From: Desulfobacula sp.
GTDB lineage: Bacteria; Desulfobacterota; Desulfobacteria; Desulfobacterales; Desulfobacteraceae
Assembly: GCF_030611305.1 (NCBI RefSeq)
Contig: NZ_JAUWQB010000023.1
Location: forward strand, 1-45,696
Length of the DNA: 45,696 nucleotides
Reading direction: 5' to 3'
Shown here piece by piece: positions 7,774 to 15,901 of the stretch. How positions within the stretch are numbered: position 1 is the stretch's first letter; each line of letters begins with the position of its first letter. Both the position numbers and the translations under genes were made by a program. The notes under the pieces were generated by a model. It ran no database searches, was not told the DNA's origin, and saw only the letters and a list, made by a program, of their open reading frames with translations.

Positions 7774-9777
7774 ATGGCCCAAGCCAAAACAAATCTTGAT
7801 CAATTAACCGTCAGCACAGTCAGAACCCTTTGTATGGATGCGGTTCAAAAAGCAAATTCCGGACATCCGGGTGCACCTATGGGCTTAGCGCCTGCAGCAT
7901 ATGTTTTGTTCAAACGCTTTTTAAAACACAACCCCAAAAACCCGGCATGGATCGACAGGGATCGCTTTGTTATGTCCGGAGGCCATGTCTCTTCTTTGCT
8001 TTACAGCCTTCTCTATCTTATGGGTTATGGCCTTGAACTTAGTGATCTGAAAAACTTCAGACAATGGGGTTCCAGAACCCCGGGACATCCTGAACGCGGA
8101 GATACCCCGGGTGTTGAAACCACAACCGGTCCTTTGGGCCAGGGAATTGCCAATGCTGTGGGCATGGCCATTGCAGAATGTCATCTGGCAGCCAGATTCA
8201 ACATGAAAGAAAAAGAACTTATCAACCACCATACCTATGTGATGTGCGGTGATGGGGATCTCATGGAAGGGGTTGCCCTTGAAGCGATTTCCCTTGCAGG
8301 ACACCTTGGACTTGGAAAACTGATCTGCCTTTACGATGACAATTCCATTACCATTGAAGGAAAAACAGACATTTCATTTACAGAAGATGTGAAAGCAAAA
8401 TTTGAAAGCCAGAACTGGCATGTGGTCACGGTTGAAGACGGCAACGACCTTGCAGAAATCCAGAAAGCCATCCAGGCAGGCAAAGATGCTGTTGCAAGAC
8501 CGACACTGGTACAGATAAAAACGCATATTGCCTATGGCAGCCCCAACAAACAGGACTCTTCCGATGCCCATGGCGCACCCCTTGGAGTGGACGAAATTAA
8601 GCTGGTTAAGCAGTTTTATGGAGTACCGGATGATAAGGATTTTTATGTACCCGAAGAGGTATTGGAGAACTGTAGAAAAGCCCTGATATATGGAGAAGGG
8701 TTTGAACAAAGCTGGCAGGACATCTTTAACGACTATAAAACTGAATACCCGGAACATGCTGACAAGTTTGTTGATGCTGTCAGCGGCTTTTTAACTGAGG
8801 GCTGGGATGCAGATATTCCTCAATTCGATCCTGAAGACGGACCCATTGCCACACGGGCTGCATCGGGCCAGGTACTCAATGCCATTGCTGACAGTCTACC
8901 TGCATTAATGGGGGGATCTGCCGACCTTGCACCGTCAAATAAAACTTATCTTAACAATTCAACCGAGTTTCAAAAAGATGCCTGGGAAGGACGAAATATT
9001 AGATTTGGCGTTCGTGAACATGCCATGGGTGCCATCATGTCAGGTATGTATCTTCATTCCGGCATCCGACCCTATGGCGGGACTTTCATGGTTTTTGCCG
9101 ATTATATGCGCCCGGCCATCCGTATGGCATCATTAATGAAACTACCGCTGATTTATGTGTTTACCCATGACAGCGTTGCTGTGGGCGAAGACGGACCCAC
9201 CCATCAGCCGGTTGAACACCTGGCATCGCTGCGGGCTATTCCGGGTCTTACCGTTGTAAGGCCGGCCGATGCCAATGAGACGGCTCTTGCCTGGAAACAG
9301 GCTTTAAAAACTATTGATTCACCCACCGCATTGATACTAAGCCGCCAAAAACTGCCCACCCTTGATGTATCCCGGCGGGACGGCGAATTTAATTATGGAG
9401 CGTATACAGTCAAAAATGTCATGGACCCGGATATGATTCTCATTGCCACTGGTTCCGAAGTCCATATCTGCGTTGAGGCAGCCGATACACTTGAAAAAGA
9501 TCACAACATCAAAGCTGCCGTGGTATCCATGCCGTCCTGGGAACTCTTTGAAAAGGCCCCTGCATCCTACAGGGAAAGAATTCTGCCGTCCGGTGTGACA
9601 AAAAGAATGGCTGTTGAAGCAGGAATTTCCATGGGATGGGAAAAATACACAGGCCAGGAAGGTAAAACCATCGGCATTGATAAATTCGGTGCTTCAGCAC
9701 CCGGCGAAACCGTACTCAAGGAGTATGGATTCTCCCCGGAAAATATCGTTAATAACGCGCTTGATCTTTTAAAATAA
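7774..9777 (+). CDS. tkt: Transketolase
   Basis: A 667-residue thiamine-diphosphate enzyme that moves two-carbon units between sugar phosphates in the pentose-phosphate pathway. The N-terminal domain has SGHPGAPMG and the diphosphate motif GDGDLMEG followed about 30 residues later by DDNSITIEG. The middle domain has GVREHAMGAI with the catalytic Glu and HDSVAVGEDGPTHQP. The C-terminal domain is complete. An ATG at 7753 is in frame, but AGGAG at 7760-7764 is 9 bases before the ATG at 7774, which fits a ribosome-binding site and family length. A hairpin follows the stop. Confidence 0.97.
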   Translation: MAQAKTNLDQLTVSTVRTLCMDAVQKANSGHPGAPMGLAPAAYVLFKRFLKHNPKNPAWIDRDRFVMSGGHVSSLLYSLLYLMGYGLELSDLKNFRQWGSRTPGHPERGDTPGVETTTGPLGQGIANAVGMAIAECHLAARFNMKEKELINHHTYVMCGDGDLMEGVALEAISLAGHLGLGKLICLYDDNSITIEGKTDISFTEDVKAKFESQNWHVVTVEDGNDLAEIQKAIQAGKDAVARPTLVQIKTHIAYGSPNKQDSSDAHGAPLGVDEIKLVKQFYGVPDDKDFYVPEEVLENCRKALIYGEGFEQSWQDIFNDYKTEYPEHADKFVDAVSGFLTEGWDADIPQFDPEDGPIATRAASGQVLNAIADSLPALMGGSADLAPSNKTYLNNSTEFQKDAWEGRNIRFGVREHAMGAIMSGMYLHSGIRPYGGTFMVFADYMRPAIRMASLMKLPLIYVFTHDSVAVGEDGPTHQPVEHLASLRAIPGLTVVRPADANETALAWKQALKTIDSPTALILSRQKLPTLDVSRRDGEFNYGAYTVKNVMDPDMILIATGSEVHICVEAADTLEKDHNIKAAVVSMPSWELFEKAPASYRERILPSGVTKRMAVEAGISMGWEKYTGQEGKTIGIDKFGASAPGETVLKEYGFSPENIVNNALDLLK

Positions 9778-9796
9778 CAAACCTTAAGTAGCATCT

Positions 9797-9834
9797 AACC
9801 CGGTGCCAAAAATTCTTTGGCTCCCGGGTTTTAA
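9797..9834 (+). terminator. Hairpin terminator after transketolase
   Basis: AACCCGGTGCCAAA (9797-9810) pairs with TTTGGCTCCCGGGTT (9816-9830) with one bulge, followed by TTTT. It ends 15 bases before the next ATG, so it either terminates transketolase transcripts or attenuates the downstream YjbQ-type gene. Confidence 0.65.
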
Positions 9835-9849
9835 AAAAGGAGGCAGAAT

Positions 9850-10236
9850 ATGCAGATCAGTGTTAAAACAAACGCAAGAACCCAGATGGTCGATATCACT
9901 TCCCAGGTTCAAAATGCTGTAAAAGAATCCAAAATAAAAAACGGCCTTGTCCATGTCTTTTCCATGCACACCACCGCCGCGATCACCATTAACGAAAATG
10001 CAGATCCTGCCGTTGAAACAGATATTCTAAATACCATCAACAAGGTGATCCCCTGGGATGATCATTTCAAACACATGGAAGGCAATTCTGCCGCGCACAT
10101 AAAGGTCAGCCTGTTCGGCCCTTCCGAAACCATACCTTTGGAAAACGGCTCTCTTGTTCTTGGCACCTGGCAGGGTATTTATTTCTGTGAATTTGACGGC
10201 CCCAGAAACCGGCGGGTGAATATTAAAATCCTCTGA
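9850..10236 (+). CDS. YjbQ/UPF0047 family protein
   Basis: A 128-residue single-domain protein of the YjbQ (UPF0047) family, shown by FSMHTTAAITINENADP, the HMEGNSAAHIK segment with conserved His residues, and the terminal GTWQGIYFCEFDGPR. Some members have weak thiamine-phosphate synthase activity, but the physiological role is unsettled. AAGGAGG immediately upstream is a very strong ribosome-binding site. It follows transketolase, a thiamine-diphosphate enzyme; the pairing is suggestive only. Confidence 0.9.
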   Translation: MQISVKTNARTQMVDITSQVQNAVKESKIKNGLVHVFSMHTTAAITINENADPAVETDILNTINKVIPWDDHFKHMEGNSAAHIKVSLFGPSETIPLENGSLVLGTWQGIYFCEFDGPRNRRVNIKIL

Positions 10237-10437
10237 TGATTAATCAAATCATTATGAATATAAAATTTATGTTGCCTGTCAGAAAGTTCCTTCCTACCCA
10301 GATAGTTGTCAAATTGCAGTGATAATTATTGTGGTATTTTAATCATCATGATTATTCATTATTAATGGCGTTGGTAAGGTCATGATTCAAAAAACCATAC
10401 AAAAGTCCAACAAAAAAATGCTGCGGGAGGTGAAATT

Positions 10438-11313
10438 GTGCATATAGATAAATCTGCAGAGAATGCCATATGGATAGAAAAAACAATAAAAGATTTCATT
10501 GAAACCTCGCCTGAAAACACATTAAAAAATCAAAACAATGATAAAGCCTTTGAAATGCCGCTGGTAGGGTTTTCAAGAGGAGACGATCCTTTATATGAGG
10601 CGTATAAAGATCATGTGGGGCCGTTCTACTTAACACCTTTGGAAATATTTACTGTTACTTTCAGGGATTTTGGCATAAAGGCTGAGGAACTGACGGTCAT
10701 TAGCTGGATTCTGCCGCATAATAATGCCACCAAGGCCGATAACCGAAAAGAAAAATTTTATCCTGCTGAAAGATGGGCGAGAGGGCGCATTTTTGGTGAA
10801 GAAACCAATGAAATCCTCCGAAAACATGTTGTGACATCTTTGGAGTCAGGAGGATACAGGGCAGTCGCCCCTGTACTCACTCCCCAATTCAGCATAAGAA
10901 TCTCGCCAAAGTACGGATATGCCTCTACCTGGTCTGAACGACATGCAGCTTATGCATCAGGACTTGGAACATTCGGCCTTTGTGACGGGCTTATCACTCC
11001 CTTAGGCAAGGCAATGCGTACAGGCTCCATTATTGCCCAAATTCCGGTTTCTCCCACGCCAAGACCTTATAAAGATCACCATGAATACTGCCTCTTTTTT
11101 ACCAAAGGCGTTTGTGGAAAGTGCATATCCAGATGTCCTGCAGGAGCTATCACTGAAGCTGGAAAAAATAAAGAATTGTGCTATAAACACCTTGTTCCTG
11201 TTACCAAGGATTATGTGATATCAAACTATGCCCTTGACGGATATGGCTGAGGTCTCTGCCAGACAAAGGTTCCTTGTGAATCTAAAATCCCAAAAGAACA
11301 GGACGTTAATTAA
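10438..11313 (+). CDS. QueG-like 4Fe-4S protein with in-frame TGA (candidate selenoprotein)
   Basis: The frame opens with GTG at 10438 after a GGGAGG ribosome-binding site. It runs 270 codons to TGA at 11248, then continues in the same frame for 20 more codons to TAA at 11311-11313. The C-terminal part carries CGKCISRCP (first 4Fe-4S cluster), a later Cys in ELC, and then, across the TGA, YG-[TGA]-GLCQTKVPCES. Epoxyqueuosine-reductase-type double-cluster proteins have YGCxxC here, so the TGA replaces the first cysteine of the second cluster. Selenocysteine insertion is one explanation; a fresh nonsense mutation is the other. The N-terminal 200 residues match the QueG-like fold only loosely and no cobalamin or queuosine role is asserted. 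Confidence 0.75.
11248..11250 (+). other. Candidate TGA recoding site
   Basis: This TGA lies at a conserved cysteine position of a ferredoxin cluster motif and the downstream coding sequence is intact. Sixteen bases after it is a small hairpin: ACAA (11263-11266) pairs with TTGT (11274-11277) around AGGTTCC, which has G in the second loop position. The spacing matches bacterial SECIS elements, but the stem is only four pairs, so structural support is weak. Confidence 0.45.
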
Positions 11314-11361
11314 AAATTGGCTTATAACCCTTTATTGAAGATTTGAATATAGGACTGTATT

Positions 11362-12255
11362 ATAAAAATTGCTACTATTCTACTTGATGGACAAGAAGTT
11401 GCCGGTATTATAACAGATTATGGTTGCTTACCCATACCTTTCATTAATGAGCGATTTAATAAAAATTGGCCGCATGATTTATTCAGCATACTTGCTGAAG
11501 AAAGATTGGAAGAAATAAAAAAATGGTTTTATCAAAACAGTGACGTTTTAACTCAAGAATTAAAGGAAATCTCTATCCTGAAAAAAAAGATCCGGTTTGC
11601 ACCTCTGTATCGTCGACCGAGAAAAATTTGGGGAATTGGTTTAAATTATAAAGCTCATGCGGAAGACCTTTCTGAAAAAGTACCTGTCTCAGAACCTGCG
11701 AGTTTTATGAAGCCCGATACCGCGATTATTGGTCATCAAGATACAATAAAAATCCCGATACTATCAGAAAAAACTACAGGAGAAGCAGAACTCGGACTGA
11801 TTTTTGGAAAAAAGTGTAAAAATGTGAGGCGGGATGATTGGCGTTCTGTTCTCGCTGGAGTCACAACGATTATCGATATGACAGCAGAAGATATTCTAAA
11901 AAGGAATCCTCGAAATTTAACACAATCCAAAAGTTTTGATTCCTTTTTTAGTTTTGGGCCAATTTTATATACAATTGAAGAAATAAAAGATGTATTCAGT
12001 TTCAAAGTCCAAACAATTATCAATGGTAAATTACATGCCGAAAACACTGTTGCAAACATGACATTTCCACTCGATTTTTTAGTTGCGTATCATTCACAAA
12101 TCATGACGATGCTTCCAGGAGATATTATTTCAACCGGGACACCTGGAGCAGTACCATTAAAAAATAGTGATATTATTGAATGCCGTATTAGTGGCTTCCA
12201 ACCGCTAATAAATCATGTCATTGATTTAAAATTAAAAAAAAGAGGTGTTTTATGA
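11362..12255 (+). CDS. Fumarylacetoacetate hydrolase family protein with non-standard start
   Basis: The C-terminal part clearly belongs to the FAH family: GIGLNYKAHAED, ASFMKPDTAI, the metal-binding EAELGLIFG, SKSFDSFFSFGP and GDIISTGTPGAV. Members hydrolyse or decarboxylate beta-diketo acids. Homologous-looking sequence continues upstream of the first usable TTG (11506) to about 11362, where KIATILLDGQEVAGII begins. The codon in the expected Met position is ATA, with AGG eight bases upstream and no ATG, GTG or TTG between the preceding stop (11350) and 11506. Full length would be 297 residues, normal for the family. It is more AT-rich than its neighbours. It ends with ATGA overlapping a broken DUF2235 gene. 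Confidence 0.7.
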   Translation: MKIATILLDGQEVAGIITDYGCLPIPFINERFNKNWPHDLFSILAEERLEEIKKWFYQNSDVLTQELKEISILKKKIRFAPLYRRPRKIWGIGLNYKAHAEDLSEKVPVSEPASFMKPDTAIIGHQDTIKIPILSEKTTGEAELGLIFGKKCKNVRRDDWRSVLAGVTTIIDMTAEDILKRNPRNLTQSKSFDSFFSFGPILYTIEEIKDVFSFKVQTIINGKLHAENTVANMTFPLDFLVAYHSQIMTMLPGDIISTGTPGAVPLKNSDIIECRISGFQPLINHVIDLKLKKRGVL

Positions 12256-12305
12256 TTAAAAGAATTGCTGTTTGTGCAGATGGTACATGAAATCGTCGTG
12301 CATAA
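12252..12305 (+). pseudogene. 5' remnant of a DUF2235 hydrolase gene
   Basis: The frame starts at the ATG overlapping the FAH stop and reads MIKRIAVCADGT, then TGA, then NRRA and TAA. DUF2235 alpha/beta-hydrolases begin with KRIxVxxDGTWN, so the TGA sits at the Trp codon and the rest of the gene is gone. ATGA overlap shows it was once coupled to the FAH gene. Only 18 codons remain, so the assignment rests on one short motif. Confidence 0.45.
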
Positions 12306-12321
12306 AAATATTATGGATGAT

Positions 12322-12389
12322 TACCGGTATAAATTATCAACAACCTATCAAAATGCCCATATTACTACTTTCACCGATATCACGGGGAC
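12322..12389 (+). repeat. Diverged partial copy of the rlpA SPOR domain
   Basis: These 68 bases match the reverse complement of 15210-15277, inside rlpA, at 58 of 68 positions (47 of the first 50). Translated, they give YRYKLSTTYQNAHITTFTD against YRYKLSKTYQNAHITTFTD in RlpA. No start, no preceding rlpA domain and no extension are present, so it is a gene fragment in inverted orientation about 2.8 kb from its partner. The recD2 stop codon lies within it. Confidence 0.85.
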
Positions 12390-14530
12390 ATCAATTTTTG
12401 TTTAAGGCCTGAGAGACGTAAAGCGGTTTTATTATTATTCAGCGCCATCTTAAGGGCTTTTGAAGACCCTACAATGATCACCAGGTTTTTCCCCCGGGTC
12501 ATGGCCGTGTATAAAAGATTTCTTTGCAACAGGGGAAAATGGGCGGTTGTCAGTGCAACAATGACAGCTGCATACTCACTGCCCTGGGATTTGTGGACGG
12601 ATATGGTATAGGCCAGGGTGAGTTCATCCAGTTCCAGGATATCATATTCAACGATGCGGCCGTCATAATCCACCAGAACACGGCTTTTGGATTTAATGAC
12701 TTCATGAACGATACCGATATCCCCGTTAAACACATCTTTTTCATAATTGTTTTTCAGATGCATGACCTTGTCATTGGGTTTAAATATGATGCCCCCGGCC
12801 TCTATGCCGCCCCTGGATTGATTTAATACCCTTTGAAGCTGCTGGTTCAGATTAATGGTACCGGCCTGCCCCCGATGCATGGGAGTTAAGACCTGTATTT
12901 CATCAATGTGGGGAAATGCTTTGGGCACCCGTTTTGAACAAAGCTCGAGGATGGTCTCCACCACTTTTTCAGATTCCCGGTTCTCAATAAAATAAAATTC
13001 TGACAATTCACCCGACTTAGCTTTCTGAAAATCCGGCATCTCTCCGTTCCGGATTTTGTGGGCATACATGATAATAGGGCTTTCCTTGGCCTGCCTGAAT
13101 ATATTTGTTAAAGAGAAGACTTTTACTCGATCAGATTCAATAATATCAGACAATACATTGCCGGGGCCCACAGAAGGAAGCTGGAATGTATCGCCCACAA
13201 GTATCAGGTTTGCACTTACCGGCATGGCTTCAATGAGCCGGTACATGAGCAGGGTATCCACCATTGAGGCTTCATCCACAACCAACACATCCAACTCAAG
13301 GGGATTGGCAAAATTTCTCTCAAATGTCTGGTTTTCATAGTCAAATCCCAAAAGCTTGTGCAGGGTAAAGGCCTTTTTTCCTGTTACTTCGGAAAGGCGC
13401 CTGGCAGCCCTTCCTGTGGGGGCACTCAACGCCACCTTTAGATCCTGCCATCTGTAGACCGCACACAATGCCCGTATCAGGGTTGTTTTTCCGGTTCCCG
13501 GCCCCCCTGTGATCACAACAATTTTTTCATGCAATACATTATTGACAACACTCAATTGTTCTGTGGATAATTTTATGGCAAGATTTATCAGCACTTTTTC
13601 AAGGATTTGATCTTTGTTGATTTGCCGAGAAATTACAGACATGGATAAAATGGCTTTCATCCTTGATGCAATACCTGATTCAGCCCTGTAAAGCCTTGAA
13701 AGATAAACTTTTATATCATCTTCATCCGGTTCCGTCCTTACTTCCTCCAAATCAATCAATGCTTCCAGCGCCTGCTCAAATTTATCCGGTTCCACACCTG
13801 ATGTTTTTGAACATAATTTGAACAATTCTTTTTTTAATGTATAAACATGCCCCTCTTTTTCAGATAACAAAATCGTGTGGACCAGGCAGGCCTGAAGACG
13901 GTTTTCATCATCTTTTTTGCCCCCTGCTTTCATGGCAATCATGTCTGCTATGGCAAACCCGATCCCGGGAAGATCCTTTGCAATGGCATAAGGATTCTGC
14001 TGCAAAATGTTCAGAGTTTCAGGACCATAGATTTGAAGAATAGTGGCGGCATGATACACGCCCACATCATTTTCCTGGAGGAATTGCATAACCCTTCTAA
14101 CTGCATGGTGCTTGTTCCAGGCCTGCTCAATGAGTTTTTTCTTGGCCTCTCCGATTCCGTAAATTTTTTTTAGTTTCTCAGGTTCGTTTTCAAAGATATC
14201 CAGAGTTCTTTCTTCAAACTGATCCACTATTTTATCGGCCAGTGATTTACCGATTCCTTTAATCATGCCCGAGCCAAGATATTTACGAATCCCTGAAACC
14301 GTGGCAGGCAAAACAACCTTATAAACTTCTGCTTTAAACTGGTCTCCATATTTGGGGTGCGTGGTCCATTTCCCTGAGACCTCAAGGCTTTCACCTTCAA
14401 ACACCCCGGCAAGATGACCCACAATGGTGACAGGATCACTGATTTTAGCGATCCGAAGTTTCGCAACCGTATAATGGTTGTCCTGATTCTGATAGGTCAG
14501 TCGGTCTAAAATGCCTTTGATGGTGATCAT
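12380..14530 (-). CDS. recD2: RecD2-type ATP-dependent DNA helicase
   Basis: A 716-residue superfamily 1B 5'-3' helicase. The N-terminal OB-like and helix-hairpin-helix region (to about residue 200) contains GSGMIKGIGKSLADKIV and GIGFAIADMIAMKAG. The motor has Walker A GGPGTGKTT at about 342-350, VVDEASMVD (motif II), GDTFQLPSVGPG (motif III) and the C-terminal YTISVHKSQGSEY and NLLYTAMTRGK motifs. This is the RecBC-independent form; no recB or recC is nearby. Its start is one base after the gmhB stop. The last residues (LMSP and stop) are encoded by the rlpA-like repeat, implying a rearranged 3' end. Confidence 0.93.
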   Translation of the reverse strand: MITIKGILDRLTYQNQDNHYTVAKLRIAKISDPVTIVGHLAGVFEGESLEVSGKWTTHPKYGDQFKAEVYKVVLPATVSGIRKYLGSGMIKGIGKSLADKIVDQFEERTLDIFENEPEKLKKIYGIGEAKKKLIEQAWNKHHAVRRVMQFLQENDVGVYHAATILQIYGPETLNILQQNPYAIAKDLPGIGFAIADMIAMKAGGKKDDENRLQACLVHTILLSEKEGHVYTLKKELFKLCSKTSGVEPDKFEQALEALIDLEEVRTEPDEDDIKVYLSRLYRAESGIASRMKAILSMSVISRQINKDQILEKVLINLAIKLSTEQLSVVNNVLHEKIVVITGGPGTGKTTLIRALCAVYRWQDLKVALSAPTGRAARRLSEVTGKKAFTLHKLLGFDYENQTFERNFANPLELDVLVVDEASMVDTLLMYRLIEAMPVSANLILVGDTFQLPSVGPGNVLSDIIESDRVKVFSLTNIFRQAKESPIIMYAHKIRNGEMPDFQKAKSGELSEFYFIENRESEKVVETILELCSKRVPKAFPHIDEIQVLTPMHRGQAGTINLNQQLQRVLNQSRGGIEAGGIIFKPNDKVMHLKNNYEKDVFNGDIGIVHEVIKSKSRVLVDYDGRIVEYDILELDELTLAYTISVHKSQGSEYAAVIVALTTAHFPLLQRNLLYTAMTRGKNLVIIVGSSKALKMALNNNKTALRLSGLKQKLMSP

Positions 14531-15100: not shown

Positions 15101-15901
15101 TTATTCTGCAACTGCAAAGGCACTGCCAAAGCCTTGTGCGATGATTTTTTCACTGAACCTTATGGCATCCTTCAAATTGGTAAACCTGCCGATTCTCACC
15201 CGGTAAAACGTCCCCCGGTCGTCCGTAAAAGTAGTAATATGGGCGTTTTGATAAGTTTTTGATAATTTATACCGGTATTTTTCTGCATTGGCTTTGATCT
15301 GGAATGCCCCCACCTGGATCGTGAGGTTGCCTTTCCAGTAATCAACGGGTTTAAAGGCAATAGGATCTTTTGTTTTCTTGGAATATGATGTGGCCCTTCC
15401 AAGGGCGGTTACCCTTACCTTTGCTGTTCCGGAGCCTGCGATCCCGATACGTTTTGCCCCGGTGTAAGAAAGGTCTATGATCCTCCTATAAACAAACGGG
15501 CCGCGGTCATTAATCCTCACCACAATCTTCCGGTTGTTTTCAAGATTATGGACACTGACCCAGGTATTCATGGGTAGTGTTTTATGAGCGGCCGTCATGG
15601 CGTGCATGTTGTAAATTTCACCATTGGAAGTTTTTCTTCCATGAAACTTTTTGCCGTACCAGGATGAAATCCCGGTCTGGACAAATCCGGTGGCACTGGC
15701 AATCGGAGTATATTGAACCCCTTTTATTTTATAGGGCCTCTGAGTTGCAGGGCTTTTTTGTCCGGTGGATACCGATGGACTTGTTTTATATGTTGATGAT
15801 TTCGAGGGCGGGATATGGGCTTTCTTATATGGGGTATCAAGAGTGCTTGCGCAACCGAAAAGGGCCAGTGAAAACAATATCATGATCTGGGTTCTGAACA
15901 T
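15101..15901 (-). CDS. rlpA: RlpA-like septal peptidoglycan lipoprotein with SPOR domain
   Basis: A 266-residue lipoprotein: signal helix followed by the lipobox LFGC at about residues 14-17, placing Cys17 as the lipidated residue. A low-complexity Ser/Thr/Lys linker leads to the double-psi beta-barrel (about 75-165) with GISSWYGKKFHGRKTSNGE, then a C-terminal SPOR domain (about 185-262) that binds denuded septal glycan. RlpA proteins act at the division site and some are lytic transglycosylases; the barrel shows the conserved Asp in NDRGPFV and the HGRKT loop. A fragment of its SPOR domain is found inverted at 12322-12389. Confidence 0.92.
   Translation of the reverse strand: MFRTQIMILFSLALFGCASTLDTPYKKAHIPPSKSSTYKTSPSVSTGQKSPATQRPYKIKGVQYTPIASATGFVQTGISSWYGKKFHGRKTSNGEIYNMHAMTAAHKTLPMNTWVSVHNLENNRKIVVRINDRGPFVYRRIIDLSYTGAKRIGIAGSGTAKVRVTALGRATSYSKKTKDPIAFKPVDYWKGNLTIQVGAFQIKANAEKYRYKLSKTYQNAHITTFTDDRGTFYRVRIGRFTNLKDAIRFSEKIIAQGFGSAFAVAE

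Follow-up and report, generated by a model that had tools for sequence, protein, structure and literature searches.

An in-frame TGA at an invariant cysteine of a QueG/reductive dehalogenase-like gene in Desulfobacula: a plausible, unproven case of selenocysteine insertion

A QueG/RdhA-like gene with an in-frame TGA

The window, i.e. the whole stretch of 45,696 nucleotides of Desulfobacula sp. DNA that was analysed (contig NZ_JAUWQB010000023.1), contains a gene that starts with GTG at 10438, has an in-frame TGA at codon 271 (11248–11250) and ends with TAA at 11311–11313. The features of this gene are as follows.

10438..11313, + strand: QueG/RdhA-like gene, 291 codons and the TAA when the TGA is read through, identified by homologues, profile matches and fold matches
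11248..11250, + strand: codon 271, an in-frame TGA where homologues invariably have cysteine (UxxC if read as selenocysteine, Sec)
11251..11310, + strand: the 20 codons that follow the TGA, among them cysteines 274 and 280 as well as the invariant G272, V278, E281 and P285

Reading through the TGA would yield a product of 291 residues with the C-terminal end ...DGYG-U-GLCQTKVPCESKIPKEQDVN. The sequence-only reading of this DNA, which had pointed to the TGA and to an intact continuation of 20 codons, was right on both counts, and the remaining cluster cysteines are indeed present in the continuation.

The window protein matches Fer4_16, TIGR00276 (QueG) and TIGR02486 (reductive dehalogenase) only weakly, always below the cut-off. 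A search of the PDB with a 60-member profile retrieved a reductive dehalogenase (8q4h, 1.2e-7) and QueG (5d08, 1.2e-5), with YGCGLCQT aligned opposite YGCDTCQT of QueG, and an AlphaFold model of the window protein (pLDDT 96.5) retrieved QueG and reductive dehalogenases in Foldseek with a probability of 1.00, albeit with high rmsd. These profile and fold matches place the protein in the B12-plus-two-[4Fe-4S]-cluster superfamily, the fold and cysteine layout of which it displays. It looks like a member that is neither QueG nor RdhA proper, and belongs to an uncharacterised family in the QueG/reductive dehalogenase superfamily, with a B12 site predicted from its fold.

Eight cysteines fitting two [4Fe-4S] clusters (positions 218, 226, 229, 233, 248, 271, 274 and 280) are invariant in an alignment of 60 rows drawn from 99 nearly full-length loci, from which repeats and the TGA copies of the sister species were excluded (59 rows plus the window protein). 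At position 271, all 59 other rows have Cys, as had been claimed for the homologues at the outset. In Streptococcus thermophilus QueG, the ligands of the cluster adjacent to B12 are given as Cys194, 210, 236 and 239 (PMC4646009); by motif, position 271 would correspond to Cys236, and alignment to QueG suggests that it is a cluster ligand. An in-frame UGA at a Cys of homologues, in conserved flanks, is one of the marks of a selenoprotein gene, and it is found here. Among random single-base nonsense mutations of the Cys-coding relative L004, changes of Cys to TGA made up only 5–7% of all cases and 16–24% of those yielding TGA. Neither the window gene nor its sister-species copy has a further stop or a frameshift.

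Distribution of the TGA codon

A search of genome contigs returned 18 loci with homologues of the window protein. One of them (L003, from a Desulfobacula MAG, isolate Grevelingen), which belongs to a separately assembled sister species and is 97% identical, has the same TGA; its sequence is identical to that of the gene in genome G037, the sister genome hereafter. Sequencing error is unlikely because this second genome shows the same codon. The next relatives, L004 (90% identical, genome G201) and L005 (83%, genome G777), both have TGC at the site. The sequence-only reading had taken TGC or TGT in close relatives as a sign against Sec, and by that rule the finding counts against it, although selenoproteins normally do have relatives with Cys at the site.

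Codon by codon, 106 loci were read, several of which repeat one genome and one of which is a distant paralogue: the site is TGC in 75, TGT in 25 and TGA in four, while two fall short of it. The four TGA loci are the window genome (G000) once and the sister genome three times. In the family, 28 of 86 genomes have a match (E<=1e-60); for the order the figure is 25 of 389 (E<=1e-115) and for the phylum 111 of 395 (E<=1e-50). Among the genomes with matches at these thresholds no TGA was seen at the site beyond the two already known, those phylum genomes whose locus was not read individually being judged from the stops flagged in the match listing. The comparison of homologues thus bore out the sequence-only reading in part: TGA recurs in a second species and Cys stands elsewhere, but the TGA is confined to two sister genomes, and among other Sec-using organisms one sister species only has a TGA homologue.

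A genome considered as an independent TGA lineage (G675) had been flagged with one TGA, but its aligned gene is free of stops and reads TGC at the site, and three others flagged with TAG or TAA (G489, G407 and G481) have no stop inside the tblastn alignment.

Among the other genomes of the genus, 25 in number, the sister genome has the same gene, 13 have relatives that are 52–56% identical and the remaining 11 lack a match at E<=1e-60. The 90% identical gene L004 lies in another family and in a different neighbourhood. The gene has likely been transferred horizontally, since it is patchy within the genus and has so similar a copy in another family and another neighbourhood.

Selection between the two TGA genomes

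Between the window and the sister genome, 19 codons of the gene differ, 12 synonymously and seven non-synonymously, and none of these lies in the 84 conserved columns (90% or more). In neutral simulations of 19 random changes (10,000 runs, transition biases 1–8), the probability of seven or fewer non-synonymous changes was 0.001–0.009, and that of this outcome together with no stop and no change in the 84 conserved columns at most 0.0001 (10,000 runs); in 5,000 simulations, seven or fewer with no stop occurred in 0–0.2%. Two of the seven non-synonymous changes affect columns that are 86% conserved. The synonymous to non-synonymous ratio of 12:7 resembles those of recD2 (76:35) and gmhB (20:10), the other neighbours showing 4:2 (yjbQ) and 2:1 (tkt, 118 codons). 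The gene is therefore under purifying selection between the two genomes, which makes a long-dead gene unlikely. This test presumes that the TGA was already present in their common ancestor and draws on 19 changes between two genomes, which leaves its verdict provisional. It weakens the nonsense mutation, raised from the start as a real alternative, without removing it. After the TGA, three codons differ (two synonymously, one non-synonymously), too few for constraint to demonstrate that the tail is translated.

The next gene, encoding an FAA hydrolase (11362–12255), has a full-length frame that starts with ATA in the window and with ATG in the sister genome. It nevertheless shows nine synonymous and eight non-synonymous differences (probability of so few non-synonymous ones 0.007–0.047), so a possibly damaged gene can still show constraint, which tempers the selection argument. 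In contrast to the TGA, which is found in both genomes, the ATA is found in the window only.

Several features of the neighbourhood may be recorded here. A 56-bp inverted copy (12322–12377, 91% identical to 15222–15277, a piece of an RlpA-like frame at 15101–15901) sits between the FAA-hydrolase gene and recD2, and is present in the sister species too. From 9424 to 12300, a stretch that holds the end of tkt as well as yjbQ, the QueG-like gene and the FAA-hydrolase gene, the window and the sister genome are about 98% identical, while in recD2 (in 12380–14530) the synonymous change per codon is more than double that in the QueG-like gene, a divergence contrast for which recombination is a possible cause.

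Selenocysteine machinery and UGA-reading tRNAs

The four sel genes, the presence of which the sequence-only reading had made a check on its proposal, are all found in the window genome: selA (599.6 bits), selB (349.2 bits) and selD (369.7 bits), with one match each above the cut-off, and selC as a tRNA-Sec (76.5 bits, above the cut-off) whose anticodon is UCA and whose CCA is preceded by G. This genome also contains at least five standard selenoprotein genes with an in-frame TGA (SelD, FdhA and three FlpD genes), which served as controls; a fourth TGA-flagged FlpD match (L106) was omitted, its TGA being the last codon of the match. A tRNA-Sec above the cut-off is likewise present in the genomes of the Cys-coding L004 and L005, so Cys there is not simply due to loss of the pathway. 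The genome of L005 is deposited as Chloroflexi and may be a mixed bin.

In Desulfobacterales, an opal-reading selC* tRNA-Cys with a UCA anticodon has been described together with an extra SelB and CysRS (PMC7609411). In the window genome, a search with RF00005 gave at least 37 tRNA matches, one of them below the cut-off, the scoring having covered 150 of 228 candidates; some expected tRNAs, e.g. Ile with a GAT anticodon, are missing among the matches listed. In the loci of these listed matches ARAGORN named no UCA anticodon, the one UCA tRNA found being the tRNA-Sec, which came from a separate search, and a single SelB match exceeds the cut-off.

The region downstream of the TGA

The bacterial SECIS model asks for a hairpin 16–37 nt after the UGA, with a G in loop positions 1–2 and a minimum free energy of -7.5 kcal/mol or below (PMC13188914). 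Three features of the post-TGA region bear on it.

11263..11277, + strand: four-pair hairpin ACAA-AGGUUCC-UUGU, candidate SECIS, with its loop 16 nt past the TGA and G as second loop base, too unstable for the model
11267..11283, + strand: minimum-energy hairpin AGGUUC-CUUGU-GAAUCU, -3.9 kcal/mol, with no G in loop bases 1–2
11263..11286, + strand: codons 276–283, identical at every base in the window, the sister genome, L004 and L005, the longest such run of the gene

No element conforming to this model, as given in PMC13188914, was found after the TGA with either contiguous or bulged stems. The four-pair hairpin, already pointed out in the sequence-only reading as lying at SECIS distance, exists and has the spacing and the G of the model, but its energy is about 0 kcal/mol (best -0.4) and it is at chance level: under the same rules, 33 mechanically picked open frames of the window contain 164 ordinary Cys codons, and 128 of these have an equally good or better hairpin behind them. 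The five control genes reach -7.5 to -13.2 kcal/mol with bulged stems and -6.6 to -13.2 with contiguous ones; the weakest, the FlpD control of L101, is above the limit under the contiguous-stem rule (-6.6) and at it under the bulged-stem rule (-7.5), and the best hairpin of the FdhA control differs between the two rules. Since 35 of the 164 ordinary Cys codons also have a hairpin behind them that reaches -7.5, the test is not very specific, and the TGA site lies in the poor part of the distribution. Folding of three stretches of the window compared with shuffles points the same way, with z values of -0.49 to 0.56.

The letters of the four-pair hairpin are identical in the Cys-coding L004 and L005, so there is no sign of a SECIS having arisen with the TGA. 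The identical run of codons 276–283 around it (permutation P 0.005 for its place and 0.048 if eight such codons in a row may lie anywhere) does not fit the simple absence of a SECIS; it might reflect an RNA-level constraint predating the TGA, or chance. Atypical elements are known to occur in some established selenoprotein genes (PMC13188914).

How the TGA may be read

The locus carries the marks of a selenoprotein gene that are independent of SECIS and lacks a SECIS that fits the model. Sec insertion at codon 271 is plausible and unproven, and we regard it as the single most likely reading, at about an even chance, ahead of a dead gene and of a functional truncation. SelB and the Sec-tRNA would decode the UGA, and Sec would take the place of one cysteine of the corrinoid-adjacent cluster, where, by analogy, it would bind the iron-sulfur cluster next to B12. 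The replacement of Cys by Sec that was initially proposed is thus supported in part: the invariance of the cysteine, the TGA in two species, the machinery and the selection on the gene speak for it, and the missing SECIS, the chance-level hairpin and the hairpin letters shared with two Cys-coding relatives speak against it. As no SECIS was found, against expectation, the signal must be weak or atypical if Sec is inserted. More tentatively, at somewhat under an even chance, the gene may found a new selenoprotein family, a B12-type QueG/RdhA-like reductase with Sec as a ligand of the corrinoid-proximal [4Fe-4S] cluster and an atypical, weak SECIS the letters of which are shared by Cys-coding relatives.

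The foremost of the rivals, although in our view unlikely, is an ordinary nonsense mutation in a gene that has been dead since the common ancestor of both species, or only recently, with decay yet to come. It would account for the missing SECIS, and it is in keeping with a gene that is dispensable in many relatives (see the family genomes above), with the 56-bp fragment of another gene that lies, as an inverted copy, just downstream and with the FAA hydrolase, which has lost its ATG in the window and remains constrained, so that the statistic can outlive recent damage; yet it would have to place the TGA on an invariant Cys, as random nonsense seldom does, leave both copies with no other lesion and still show purifying selection between them. 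Ranking next, and also unlikely, is that the TGA is a true stop and that a protein of 270 residues without cysteines 271, 274 and 280 still works. This explains the selection on codons 1–270 together with the missing SECIS, and the changes in the tail are too few to prove constraint there. However, all eight cluster-fitting cysteines are invariant in 59 homologues, and two of the three that would be lost belong, by analogy to QueG (PMC4646009), to the B12-adjacent cluster, so the redox chain would be cut. Least probable of all, and quite improbable, is that, with no canonical SECIS needed, Cys or some other residue is inserted at the UGA, by a selC*-type opal tRNA-Cys or by near-cognate readthrough: precedent for selC* exists in Desulfobacterales (PMC7609411), but no UCA anticodon was named in the loci of the tRNA matches listed, the one UCA tRNA found is tRNA-Sec, with G, not U, before its CCA, and there is one SelB above the cut-off. 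Because the tRNA list is incomplete, this reading is disfavoured only.

Should Sec insertion be the correct reading, the QueG/reductive dehalogenase superfamily would join the selenoproteins, with selenium placed at the cluster from which B12 receives its electrons. The gene would then allow UGA recoding to be tested where no bacterial SECIS is recognisable, in a host whose five control selenoprotein genes have normal ones. Otherwise, the locus is instructive as a false positive, having passed the criteria that do not depend on SECIS.

Comparison with known systems

QueG (PDB 5d08, 5t8y and 5d6s; TIGR00276) is ranked first by Foldseek (E 1.4e-6, TM 0.48 by query length, rmsd 7.7). The profiles match across the C-terminal half, YGCxxCQT included, and a cysteine layout for two clusters is common to QueG and the window protein. 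However, the window protein is shorter, its last motif is C-x2-C-x5-C where QueG has C-x2-C-x3-C, and its score of 17.2 bits falls below the cut-off of 200 of TIGR00276, and hence outside that equivalog; 19 of the 60 members of the alignment match TIGR00276 at E<=1e-5, the best at 1.4e-8. RdhA/PceA (PDB 8q4h and 4ur0) gives the best profile match (1.2e-7) and a Foldseek TM of up to 0.59 by query length with rmsd >7, but the window protein is much shorter and scores 17.3 bits against the 160.35 required for TIGR02486.

A QueG/RdhA-type family is absent from the selenoprotein table of 2026, which has 119 families or subfamilies by the count of the paper itself (PMC13188914), and no QueG- or RdhA-like selenoprotein is announced in the titles or abstract openings listed by searches of the open-licence PMC literature; a Desulfobacula-like genome has been credited with 34 putative selenoproteins, the supplementary list of which could include one (PMC8318568). 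Sec has been proposed in ferredoxin-like iron-sulfur proteins, namely HgcB, NF005503 and the FDH3 beta subunit of deep-Sep (PMC13188914, PMC12013277), and SECIS-like structures were reported for the new deep-Sep cases (PMC12013277). Although these proteins belong to other families, none of them named as QueG/RdhA-type, they have in common with the window protein a predicted Sec in an iron-sulfur protein.
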